Shown here in pieces: positions 33,674 through 58,286 of a DNA stretch of 64,000 nt. The stretch is from Gracilinema caldarium DSM 7334 (lineage in GTDB: Bacteria; Spirochaetota; Spirochaetia; Treponematales; Breznakiellaceae), in the NCBI RefSeq assembly GCF_000219725.1, contig NC_015732.1, positions 1,922,001 to 1,986,000 of the forward strand. Reading direction: 5' to 3'. The notes beneath the pieces were generated by a model. It did not search any database, was not told where the DNA came from, and worked only from the letters and a program-made list of their open reading frames with translations. Position numbers and translations under genes: made by a program. Each line of letters begins with the position of its first letter. Position 1 is the first letter of the stretch.

Positions 33674-33994
33674 ATGAGTAAATTGTTTAAGTACATAATA
33701 ATTGGAGTTTCTCTAGGATTAATTGATGTTATACCAATGTTTATTATGAAACTAACATGGGATGCGAATATTTCTGCATTTTCAATGTGGGTAATAATTA
33801 GTTTTATTCTATATTACAATAATTTAAAATTAAACCAAATAGTTAAAAGTATTATAGTATCTTTTTTAGTATTGCTCCCTAACGCTATTCTTATTGGATG
33901 GAATAATCCCATCAATCTTTTCCCAGTAATTATCATGACTCTTCTTTTAAGCACAATAATGGGATTCTTTACAGGAAGAATAAATGGGAAATAA
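33674..33994 (+). CDS. Small membrane protein (cassette 26, second copy)
   Basis: Identical to the gene at 19090, including its leader. Confidence 0.72.
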   Translation: MSKLFKYIIIGVSLGLIDVIPMFIMKLTWDANISAFSMWVIISFILYYNNLKLNQIVKSIIVSFLVLLPNAILIGWNNPINLFPVIIMTLLLSTIMGFFTGRINGK

Positions 33995-34346
33995 CACCAT
34001 AGAAGATATTGGTTGTTGTGGTGCATTTTGTGGAACTTGCAAAGTTAAAAAAGAAAAAGCATGTATCGGATGTAAATTGGGATATAACAATGGAGAAAGA
34101 GATTTAGCTAAAGCAAAATGTAAAATGAAAATATGTTGCATAACAAAGAATATTGATACATGCGCTGATTGCAAAGAATTGAATTCATGCCCAATTATTC
34201 AAGATTTTTTCAATAAAAATGGTTATAAATATCATAAATATAAAGAAGCAATTTATTATATAGTAGAGTACGGATATAAAGATTTTCTTGATCAAACTAT
34301 AAAATGGACAATGCAATATGGAAAATATGAAAAAGAAAAGACGTAG
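33984..34346 (+). CDS. DUF3795 cysteine-rich protein (cassette 26, second copy)
   Basis: Identical to the gene at 19400; stop codon again in attC R''. Confidence 0.8.
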   Translation: MGNNTIEDIGCCGAFCGTCKVKKEKACIGCKLGYNNGERDLAKAKCKMKICCITKNIDTCADCKELNSCPIIQDFFNKNGYKYHKYKEAIYYIVEYGYKDFLDQTIKWTMQYGKYEKEKT

Positions 34347-34458
34347 AACAACTGCTTCAACCTGACATTGCTATTGTCACACTTTTTGCTAGTCGTCGCT
34401 ATGCTCCTCGGCAAAAAGTGCGCCAATGTACGCAATGCAGGTTAAGCAAATGTTAGGT
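34343..34458 (+). repeat. attC site 26
   Basis: 116-bp site identical to attC 12 up to the crossover; R' ATG^TTAGGTT. Confidence 0.92.
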
Positions 34459-34500
34459 TGACGCCTACGGCGCTAAATTATATACAAATCCCAGAACTGA

Positions 34501-34509
34501 TGCTATAAT
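34501..34509 (+). promoter_or_regulatory. Extended -10 promoter of the tRNA-like gene
   Basis: TGCTATAAT matches the extended -10 motif TGnTATAAT. The predicted start, near 34515, coincides with the 5' end of the tRNA-like sequence. Confidence 0.55.
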
Positions 34510-34514
34510 CTTTA

Positions 34515-34585
34515 TTGGCCGATGGTGTAAGGGGAAACACGCTCTTAGTGAGAGTATTTGTGAGGTTCGAATCCTCACCGGCAAA
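34515..34585 (+). tRNA. tRNA-like gene in cassette 27 (degenerate; anticodon possibly AGT)
   Basis: The T arm is textbook: TGAGG-TTCGAAT-CCTCA with the GGTTCGAATCC box. A D arm GTGT-AAGGGGAA-ACAC and an anticodon hairpin GCTC-TTAGTGA-GAGT (four pairs including one G-T, seven-base loop, U33 present) lie at the right distances. The acceptor GCCG/CGGC pairs but is flanked by a mismatch (TTG against AAA). No CCA is encoded. It may be a functional odd tRNA, a decayed tRNA or a tRNA mimic. Confidence 0.45.
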
Positions 34586-34614
34586 ACTCATTCAATGAGT
34601 GAGCTTTGCCGGTG
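34576..34614 (+). promoter_or_regulatory. Long hairpin overlapping the 3' end of the tRNA-like gene
   Basis: CACCGGCAAA pairs perfectly with TTTGCCGGTG, and inside it ACTCAT pairs with ATGAGT. The 5' arm is the T-stem/acceptor 3' half of the tRNA-like sequence, so the two folds exclude each other. No U tract follows, and the next gene's ribosome site is just downstream. Confidence 0.5.
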
Positions 34615-34631
34615 AAAATTCGGGAAGAAGT

Positions 34632-35354
34632 ATGCCAACAAAAATATACAGATATCATGTAGAAAACCTACGAAAGATTGAACTTACAATAAATCACATT
34701 TCTCGTTTGGCTCGAAATACAATAGCATCAAGAGATCCTGAAAATAGTCTACTATCCTTATTAAGACTCTATTCTTTTCTAATAGGAGCATGGGCTGAAA
34801 CTAGGCTTAAAAAACTGTTAAATGAAGAACGAGGTTTTTGTGATGCTGATAGAAACGAAATACTAACAGTCGCAACTCAGATGGATCAATGGAAATTAAC
34901 TATTGAAAAGGCATTTAGAAATCATTATGGTTTAAAAAAGGCAGAGCTAAATAATGTATCACTAGGCGAGACAGCTGCTGCGCGTTTCAATGTTTTGAAT
35001 AAAATAATCAATGAAGACCTTAGAATATTAATCGAGATAAGAAATAAACTTGCACACGGGCAATGGATTTATCCTTTCAACTCGGAAGGCACGGCTATTG
35101 AGCAGGATAAATACCGTCTAATTAATCAAGAAAACCTACAATCGCTTCAATTTAAATATGCCTTAGTAAAGCATCTAGCGGATACTGTCCACGATCTTGT
35201 TGTGAGCAAAGCAACTTTTGAACGAGATTTTGATGCTCATTTTAAGCAACTAAATCAAGTAAAGATTAATCTCGAACGAAAAAAATACTCTGATTATGAA
35301 GATATGCTAATAAAAAGAAGAATCGAATCAAGAAGAAAAACAAAATTAACCTAA
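34632..35354 (+). CDS. HEPN-like protein downstream of the tRNA-like gene (cassette 27)
   Basis: 240 aa, helical. LRILIEIRNKLAHGQWIYP has the R-x4-H HEPN motif (RNKLAH), typical of HEPN RNases. GGGAAGAAG precedes the ATG at 34632; a GTG at 34599 lies within the hairpin and is less likely. Its place 47 bases after a tRNA-like element suggests a functional link that is not proven. Confidence 0.6.
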   Translation: MPTKIYRYHVENLRKIELTINHISRLARNTIASRDPENSLLSLLRLYSFLIGAWAETRLKKLLNEERGFCDADRNEILTVATQMDQWKLTIEKAFRNHYGLKKAELNNVSLGETAAARFNVLNKIINEDLRILIEIRNKLAHGQWIYPFNSEGTAIEQDKYRLINQENLQSLQFKYALVKHLADTVHDLVVSKATFERDFDAHFKQLNQVKINLERKKYSDYEDMLIKRRIESRRKTKLT

Positions 35355-35463
35355 CAACTGCTTCAACCTGACTCGGCTATGTCACGATTCTTGCTTGTCG
35401 GCGCTTCGCGCCGACAAGCAAGAATCGCGCCATTACGCCTCGCAGGTTAAGCAAATGTTAGGC
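35349..35463 (+). repeat. attC site 27
   Basis: 115-bp site, R'' ACCTAAC with the stop codon, a long perfect apical stem CTTGTCGGCGC/GCGCCGACAAG, R' ATG^TTAGGCG. Confidence 0.93.
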
Positions 35464-35492: not shown

Positions 35493-36383
35493 ATGGGAAA
35501 TACTTTAATACTTGATGAAAGCAAGGTTGGTGATGGTTCACTGTTTTGTTTTGCTGGTATCTTATATAAAGATCAAACAACATTTCTACAAATTGATTCA
35601 ATATTAGCGTCTATTAAGAATAGACATGATTTAGCAAATGCAAATGCACCAATTGAACTAAAAGGAAATAAAATAAGTACAACAATTGACAGGAAAAAGG
35701 AAGCTTTGCTTGATGAGTTATTCAAAACAATCCAAGCTTTGACTCTGTCTGGTTCTGTTAGTATTCGGTTTTATATAATGCAAAAAGATGATTTGAATTA
35801 TGCAAATGTGAATTTGGAAAACGTAATTAATAAAATACTAGAAAAAAATACCAGTATTGATAAAAAAAAAGTTCAAACGTATTTATATTATCAGTTATCA
35901 TCATTACTAATAAAACGTATCCATGAATTGCCTTTTAAAAAAAGTTTCATAGAAACTGTGATTTGTGACAATATATATAATATGCGAACGACAAGCAAAT
36001 CAATTATTTGGGCAAGGGGCAATATTGCATCAATTAAAATAGACATCAATACTATAGTTCCCATGATAATTGAAGCAGTCCATAATAAATTACCTACTCC
36101 TAAACATTATGGATTTAAGTTTCTTGATTTTTATGATTCAACTTCATTAGTAAGTATTCAATTATGTGATATTCTTTCGAACTTTATTATGAATAGCATT
36201 AGGCATATGTATTTTATATCAATAGGCGATGCTACGAATGCCGCATTATACAAAGCAAAATACGATTTTCTTAATAAATATATAGATATTTCAAATTTAC
36301 CAATAACGGAAATTCCTTTAACCGCTGCAGGAAATGATATCTCTTGTTCAAATGTATTTTTACCTTTTATGGGTAAAATGTAA
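35493..36383 (+). CDS. DUF3800-like protein (cassette 28)
   Basis: 296 aa. ILDESKVGDGSLFCFAGIL at the N-terminus and FYDSTSLVSIQLCDILSNFI near residue 225 follow the DUF3800 plan (DES at the start, QLCD later). Sequence differs strongly from cassette 14. Candidate acidic ligands are D8, E9 and the D of QLCD. Nuclease role inferred. Confidence 0.6.
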   Translation: MGNTLILDESKVGDGSLFCFAGILYKDQTTFLQIDSILASIKNRHDLANANAPIELKGNKISTTIDRKKEALLDELFKTIQALTLSGSVSIRFYIMQKDDLNYANVNLENVINKILEKNTSIDKKKVQTYLYYQLSSLLIKRIHELPFKKSFIETVICDNIYNMRTTSKSIIWARGNIASIKIDINTIVPMIIEAVHNKLPTPKHYGFKFLDFYDSTSLVSIQLCDILSNFIMNSIRHMYFISIGDATNAALYKAKYDFLNKYIDISNLPITEIPLTAAGNDISCSNVFLPFMGKM

Positions 36384-58128: not shown

Positions 58129-58286
58129 ATGGATAAGTATATTTTTAAATATATTGAAGGATTTGCCGGTGAAGATTATACGACAGCATTGTTAGGATAT
58201 TTGCATGAATATTCTAACAATGAAGTTTTATTAAATATGTTTTCTATGCAAGATATTATAAAAAAAACTAGCAAAAGCACATATTT
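58129..58286 (+). pseudogene. 5' fragment of an unknown gene (cassette 45)
   Basis: About 52 residues (MDKYIFKYIEGFAGEDYTTA ... FSMQDIIKK) before the sequence runs into the IS3 remnant. No family recognised. It may be the front of the gene whose end is at 59403-59723. Confidence 0.5.

Follow-up and report, generated by a model that had tools for sequence, protein, structure and literature searches.

Why does an integron cassette carry a tRNA-shaped sequence directly in front of a HEPN-like gene, and is this sequence a tRNA, a remnant, or a part of the control of the gene? The window, i.e. the whole 64-kb stretch of Gracilinema caldarium DSM 7334 that we analysed, belongs to a long array of integron cassettes, in which the two conserved halves of attC have 33 and 45 near-matches. 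The segment 34453-35457 stands in this tandem array between flanking attC sites, as an integron cassette does, and contains an extended -10, a tRNA-like RNA, a hairpin that competes with it and a 240-aa HEPN-like open reading frame. The features are the following.

34343-34458, + strand: upstream attC, left bound of the cassette (half-sites at 34350 and 34439; extent by analogy with the next site)
About 34453-35457, + strand: integron cassette with the module, between two attC recombination points placed by the GTTRRRY rule
34501-34509, + strand: extended -10, TGC-TATAAT, read from the sequence, with 8 nt between it and the 5' strand of the acceptor
34515-34585, + strand: tRNA-like RNA (ARAGORN; covariance model 96 bits, this RNA being itself a seed; pair counts)
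34518-34521/34579-34582, + strand: acceptor, GCCG/CGGC, reduced to 4 bp
34525-34528/34537-34540, + strand: D stem
34541-34555, + strand: hairpin at the anticodon position
34561-34577, + strand: T arm, perfect 5-bp stem, loop TTCGAAT
34568-34622, + strand: competing long hairpin, arms 34568-34594 and 34596-34622, ending beside the Shine-Dalgarno sequence
34622-34630, + strand: ribosome-binding region GGGAAGAAG, read from the sequence
34632-35354, + strand: HEPN-like open reading frame, 240 aa, motif R137-N-K-L-A-H142-G-Q, with weak HEPN-family matches among its homologues
35349-35463, + strand: downstream attC, right bound of the cassette (attC-like detector; half-sites at 35356 and 35444)

The cassette before encodes a cysteine-rich DUF3795-like protein (33984-34346) and the cassette after a DUF3800 protein (35493-36383); predicted structured RNAs are also associated with DUF3800 genes. 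At a second place in the same genome (locus L038, about 3.02 Mb) we found sequence 82% like the window attC, which may correspond to cassettes or to a second array elsewhere in the genome.

The tRNA-like RNA is not a working tRNA

Over the whole 64 kb ARAGORN predicts only one tRNA, tRNA-Thr(AGT) at 34515-34587. Most details noticed in the sequence-only reading stand on inspection: the T arm is indeed perfect, the acceptor is imperfect and lacks CCA, and the extended -10 is placed so that a transcript from it would begin with the tRNA-like RNA. The anticodon AGT does not stand, this part making more sense as a 6-bp stem capped by a 3-nt loop, and neither does the tRNA itself, for which a covariance-model search had been proposed as the check: the window RNA does not reach the cut-off of the Rfam tRNA model (RF00005), and is not even listed up to E 10. 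A tRNA gene would have a 7-bp acceptor, a 7-nt anticodon loop and CCA or an addition site, against 4 bp, 3 nt and no CCA here. This RNA is thus not a working tRNA; its anticodon loop and acceptor end are lost. Regarding the promoter, 6 of 48 leaders have a perfect TATAAT within the 20 nt that precede them, for 1.3 expected, and 14 have it with one mismatch, for 12.6 expected. Matches of the hairpin region to MIR7533 and other microRNAs were rejected as chance matches.

The HEPN-like protein

The protein has the Rx4-6H motif that characterizes HEPN domains, R137-N-K-L-A-H142, at the end of the helix 113-141, and its AlphaFold2 model is all-helical (pLDDT 96, pTM 0.91). The invariance of this motif among homologues is partly circular, as the loci were fetched with it; the invariant E56 is free of this circularity. 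A few homologues match HEPN_RiboL-PSP, AbiU2, Cas13a or Csx1, weakly, and the window protein itself has no family match in Pfam, PADLOC or NCBIfam and no significant relative in Foldseek and PDB sequence searches. The HEPN assignment is thus weak by sequence and finds no confirmation in the fold searches; we call the protein HEPN-like.

The RNA and the gene are paired in many phyla

Homologues were collected as 80 loci from a scan of genome contigs, fetched with the HEPN motif. They belong to many phyla and lie on chromosomes, plasmids, prophages and viral contigs. The RNA is paired with the protein in Pseudomonadota, Bacteroidota, Chloroflexota, Actinomycetota, Bacillota, Planctomycetota and Cyanobacteriota, and also in a spirochaete lineage and a methanogen, i.e. 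in at least one archaeon. What had been noticed in one cassette is hence real, and it extends far beyond the window. A T arm of the GGTTCGATTCC type stands upstream in nearly all loci, usually about 55-75 nt before the start, and of the 26 tRNAs that ARAGORN predicts over 487 kb of homologue sequence, 21 lie within the 110 nt that precede the gene. Intact modules are present in two Qin-like prophages of E. coli (102 bits); an E. coli prophage copy spans L143, 5940-6840. A distant spirochaete homologue (22% identity), revealed by a phylum-wide search, has its own tRNA-like sequence just upstream. The leader RNA alone, searched against plasmid and phage DNA, gave only short matches; the one in Kovacikia lay just upstream of the gene and led to a true homologue, 57% identical in a tblastn search of plasmids.

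A covariance model was built on 20 leaders aligned by sequence alone (alignment A3). Of 63 loci outside the seed, it finds the RNA immediately before the gene in 55 (a further match, in L080, is misplaced), and in two more (L094 and L109) the RNA can be seen by eye. Among the others, L071 is a truncated gene and L082 has too little upstream DNA to display a leader; neither the model nor the eye recognises a leader RNA at L074, L080, L084 and L086, whose leader may be lost or of another type. On a held-out set of 14 viral contigs fetched later, 13 of them with upstream DNA, the model matches directly before the gene in 12 (E <= 2e-5), and a T arm is visible in the thirteenth (L187).

Do the RNA and the protein move together? 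Along the protein tree, which crosses phyla, the RNA type changes four times over five groups, the minimum. This indicates, at the level of sequences, that the RNA stays with its protein and that both spread by horizontal transfer. The scan of flanking genes revealed no constant partner at the homologue loci; Hachiman HamB, DISARM DrmB, AbiEii, IetS, McrBC, integrases and transposases are scattered among them, as raw presence that implies no enrichment. Few canonical attC sites were found with our crude detector, which is no fair gauge of the share of integrons among homologues. Two arrangements deserve mention beside these: Olleya namhaensis has two tandem RNA and HEPN modules (L077, 1270-3774), and a truncated remnant of the HEPN gene, devoid of leader RNA, adjoins sitABCD both in a lambdoid phage (L050, 3001-3393) and in an E. 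coli plasmid (L051, 3001-3393).

Two mutually exclusive folds

The 3' half of the T stem and acceptor had been noticed to pair over 10 bp with a downstream segment. Indeed CACCGGCAAA and TTTGCCGGTG can pair, as parts of an inverted repeat of 27 nt (34568-34594/34596-34622, 85%). The resulting long hairpin uses up the 3' half of both the T arm and the acceptor, so that it excludes the tRNA fold. Its end reaches or covers the ribosome-binding site. In addition, the first bases of GGGAAGAAG can pair with the T loop (UUCGAAU/AUUCGGG), and several homologues have a Shine-Dalgarno sequence complementary to their T loop. A clear U tract follows the hairpin in two Bacteroidota members (L085 and L092), where it is a probable intrinsic terminator, judging from the sequence.

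The compensatory changes were counted in A3, and in a second alignment (A6) made of non-seed leaders from other clades only. In A3, two-sided changes amount to 54 for the tRNA fold, against 16.8 in shuffled alignments and at most 20 when the pairing is slid, and to 84 for the hairpin, against 25.4 and at most 25. In A6 they amount to 55 for the tRNA fold (16.1 shuffled, at most 10 slid) and 146 for the hairpin (39.3 shuffled, at most 33 slid); the columns of A6 were picked by a scan for the best-paired register, which somewhat favours its slid controls to look worse. The acceptor 3' strand thus shows covariation with each of two segments, the 5' strand of the acceptor and the downstream arm, although it cannot pair with both at the same time. 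We consider this three-strand covariation the strongest evidence of the analysis, and it argues that both mutually exclusive folds are under selection. Moreover U8, A14, G18, G19, A21, T54, T55, C56, A58 and C61, which correspond to residues of the tertiary core of tRNAs, are invariant in the 20 leaders of A3. In the relatives the anticodon arm is a hairpin of free form, in many cases closed by a GNRA-like loop. The switch between a tRNA fold and a long hairpin, suggested for this cassette at first sight, is therefore, as far as conserved anatomy goes, strongly supported, with compensatory change in both folds. It is not universal, since one of the four RNA-bearing clades (L048, L113, L129 and others) keeps the tRNA-like RNA without the long hairpin; in the three others the hairpin can form.

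Two further observations concern the hairpin. Its apical part (A3 columns 80-90 with 102-112) keeps AAAG/CUUU, and a U-G wobble is kept in 16 of 20 leaders inside CAUU/AGUG, suggesting a sequence-specific recognition of the hairpin state. Another cassette of the window has a 25-nt stretch (58153-58177) like the right arm (GATTTGCCGGTGAAGATT), probably by chance.

The balance of the two folds was computed for 47 leaders, on secondary structure only, tertiary contacts being ignored and start codons being assigned by rule. The hairpin prevails in the complete leader (mean probability 0.94, against 0.06 for the tRNA fold) and is favoured in silico by about 16 kcal/mol (16.5). When the transcript is cut just after the acceptor, before the downstream arm, the tRNA fold reaches a probability of 0.73. 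Enforcing the tRNA fold raises the mean unpaired probability of the ribosome-binding site from 0.29 to 0.59; the site is freer in 36 of 47 leaders and less free in one. The effect is small in several leaders, among them that of the window (0.45 to 0.50). Because the hairpin is so strongly favoured, a simple ligand equilibrium is unlikely to operate the switch; a kinetic capture or a cleavage would be needed.

Origin of the leader and relation to known systems

Possible orphan copies of the RNA in the host genomes were found to be host tRNA genes: the off-locus matches of the model that we examined in 33 whole genomes are tRNA-Gln genes and one tRNA-Gly, leaving no orphan RNA copy, and in the genome of the window the best host match is also a tRNA-Gln. 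As these off-target matches are nearly all tRNA-Gln, the RNA of the window's clade looks like a remodelled tRNA-Gln. It shares with bacterial tRNA-Gln the sequence of the body (ATGGTGTAATGG..AACAC, T arm) and the residues of the tRNA core. It differs by its lack of anticodon loop and CCA, its shortened acceptor, its fixed place before a HEPN gene and its second fold.

The closest counterpart of the leader is the yjdF riboswitch (RF01764; PMC9142559), a tRNA-like aptamer that uses its T loop, in the off state, to pair with the Shine-Dalgarno sequence. Both are tRNA-like and tRNA-related leaders located directly upstream of the start, both have the D-loop/T-loop elbow and a dispensable anticodon loop, and in both the tRNA fold competes with a pairing to the ribosome-binding region that involves the T arm (in silico for the leader studied here). 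At the opposite, yjdF RNA controls yjdF instead of a HEPN gene, is related to tRNA-Lys instead of tRNA-Gln, and holds a purine-rich J1/2 ligand pocket, whereas the long hairpin described here also consumes the acceptor strand. The yjdF family is also characterized by its response to azaaromatic ligands. RF01764 matches neither the window nor 20 homologue loci: the leader would work like yjdF but is not a member of that family.

As for the gene, AbiF (Abi_2) is a HEPN protein regulated by an upstream non-coding RNA (RF03085; PMC12373285), and shares with our module a HEPN-type protein, a structured RNA immediately upstream and a location on mobile elements. However abiF RNA consists of 33-37-nt motifs and is not tRNA-shaped, and neither the Abi_2 domain nor the abiF RNA motif was matched in the window or in the homologues tested. 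Type III toxin-antitoxin systems (ToxIN and kin), whose RNA neutralises the toxin by binding it, also have an RNA directly upstream of a nuclease gene with a hairpin between them, but with the ToxN fold and tandem antitoxin repeats in place of an all-helical protein and a single tRNA-like RNA. The RNA belongs to no Rfam family, the protein is likewise absent from the three family collections named above, and a search of the open-access literature, in which preprints are scarcely covered, returned no paper that describes a HEPN gene accompanied by a tRNA-like RNA. As far as we found, the pairing of a tRNA mimic with a HEPN gene is undescribed, while its logic has known counterparts.

Proposed mechanism and rival explanations

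Because the pairing recurs in distant bacteria and at least one archaeon, the module looks like an RNA-controlled one rather than a stray tRNA. The reading that we prefer, and to which we give an even chance, is a compact mobile module in which a HEPN-type ribonuclease effector would be governed by a tRNA-shaped switch in the 5' leader of its mRNA. Transcription would set in where the tRNA-like RNA begins, and the tRNA fold would form first; the downstream arm would then invade it and the hairpin would win, masking the ribosome-binding site, or terminating transcription in the two Bacteroidota members, so that the effector would be kept low. If a factor gripping the tRNA elbow held the tRNA fold, or if the downstream arm were removed, the start site would be freed and HEPN made. 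Such a captor might be the HEPN protein, a tRNA-binding factor of the host, something made by a phage, or a small molecule; the effector would probably cut RNA in defence or addiction. A more daring version, which we find unlikely at this stage, makes of these modules a very widespread and hitherto undescribed class of RNA-gated immunity or addiction systems, whose leader would sense a tRNA-elbow-binding factor, perhaps a phage-encoded product that binds or cuts tRNA, by three-strand exchange and free HEPN only in its presence.

The main rival, which takes up the decoy suggested at first sight, is an RNA antitoxin of type III style, as in AbiF or ToxIN: the tRNA-like RNA, once released, would bind HEPN, mimic its substrate without offering a cleavable anticodon loop, and inactivate it, while the hairpin between RNA and gene would terminate or be processed so that RNA exceeds toxin. 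We hold it possible, if somewhat improbable. The near-constant pairing in cis, an RNA type that tracks the protein clade and an RNA position like that in AbiF (PMC12373285) agree with it, as do the replacement of the anticodon by short hairpins (often with a tetraloop), the lack of orphan RNA among the 33 host genomes and the location of the module on integrons, prophages and plasmids. The clade without the hairpin, having retained the tRNA-like RNA, also points to a role in trans or to direct binding by the protein. On the other hand, the hairpin outcompetes the tRNA fold in the full transcript in silico, a clear U tract follows it only in L085 and L092, and a pure trans role leaves unexplained why a hairpin near the ribosome-binding site covaries with the acceptor strand. 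The three-strand covariation argues for the cis switch; this switch and the trans role could both hold.

Substrate mimicry might also serve a feedback, in which HEPN, as a tRNA-binding nuclease, would limit its own synthesis by binding or cutting the tRNA-like leader that its mRNA carries. The conserved tRNA-core residues, the free-form anticodon arm and the likeness to tRNA-Gln in the window's clade would suit such a feedback, but it has no need of a second, mutually exclusive fold, and we consider it quite improbable.

A mobile tRNA gene, first entertained for this cassette on its sequence, is scarcely credible, whether genuine or recently decayed: the ARAGORN call and the several homologous leaders that exceed the Rfam tRNA cut-off (6 of 20, best 56 bits) speak for it, but the window RNA is below this cut-off, the 7-nt anticodon loop and CCA are absent, the acceptor has 4-5 bp, the anticodon arm is not conserved, and the RNA is conserved only beside the HEPN-like gene, together with its second fold. 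Equally far-fetched is a chance resemblance to tRNA next to an ordinary hairpin or terminator, or a functionless homogenisation of inverted repeats; hairpins are common near start codons and template switching can copy inverted repeats, but two alignments of divergent sequences from many phyla give a large compensatory excess for both folds, and the seed leaders do not vary in their tRNA-core residues.

Significance

Cas13 is thought to derive from the kind of HEPN effector that is controlled by RNA. If the leader switch is true, such RNA-controlled effectors would extend to a tRNA-shaped RNA, and a further case would be added to the tRNA-derived switches of mRNA leaders. The three-way covariation makes the mechanism directly testable, and intact copies of the module exist in E. 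coli strains.
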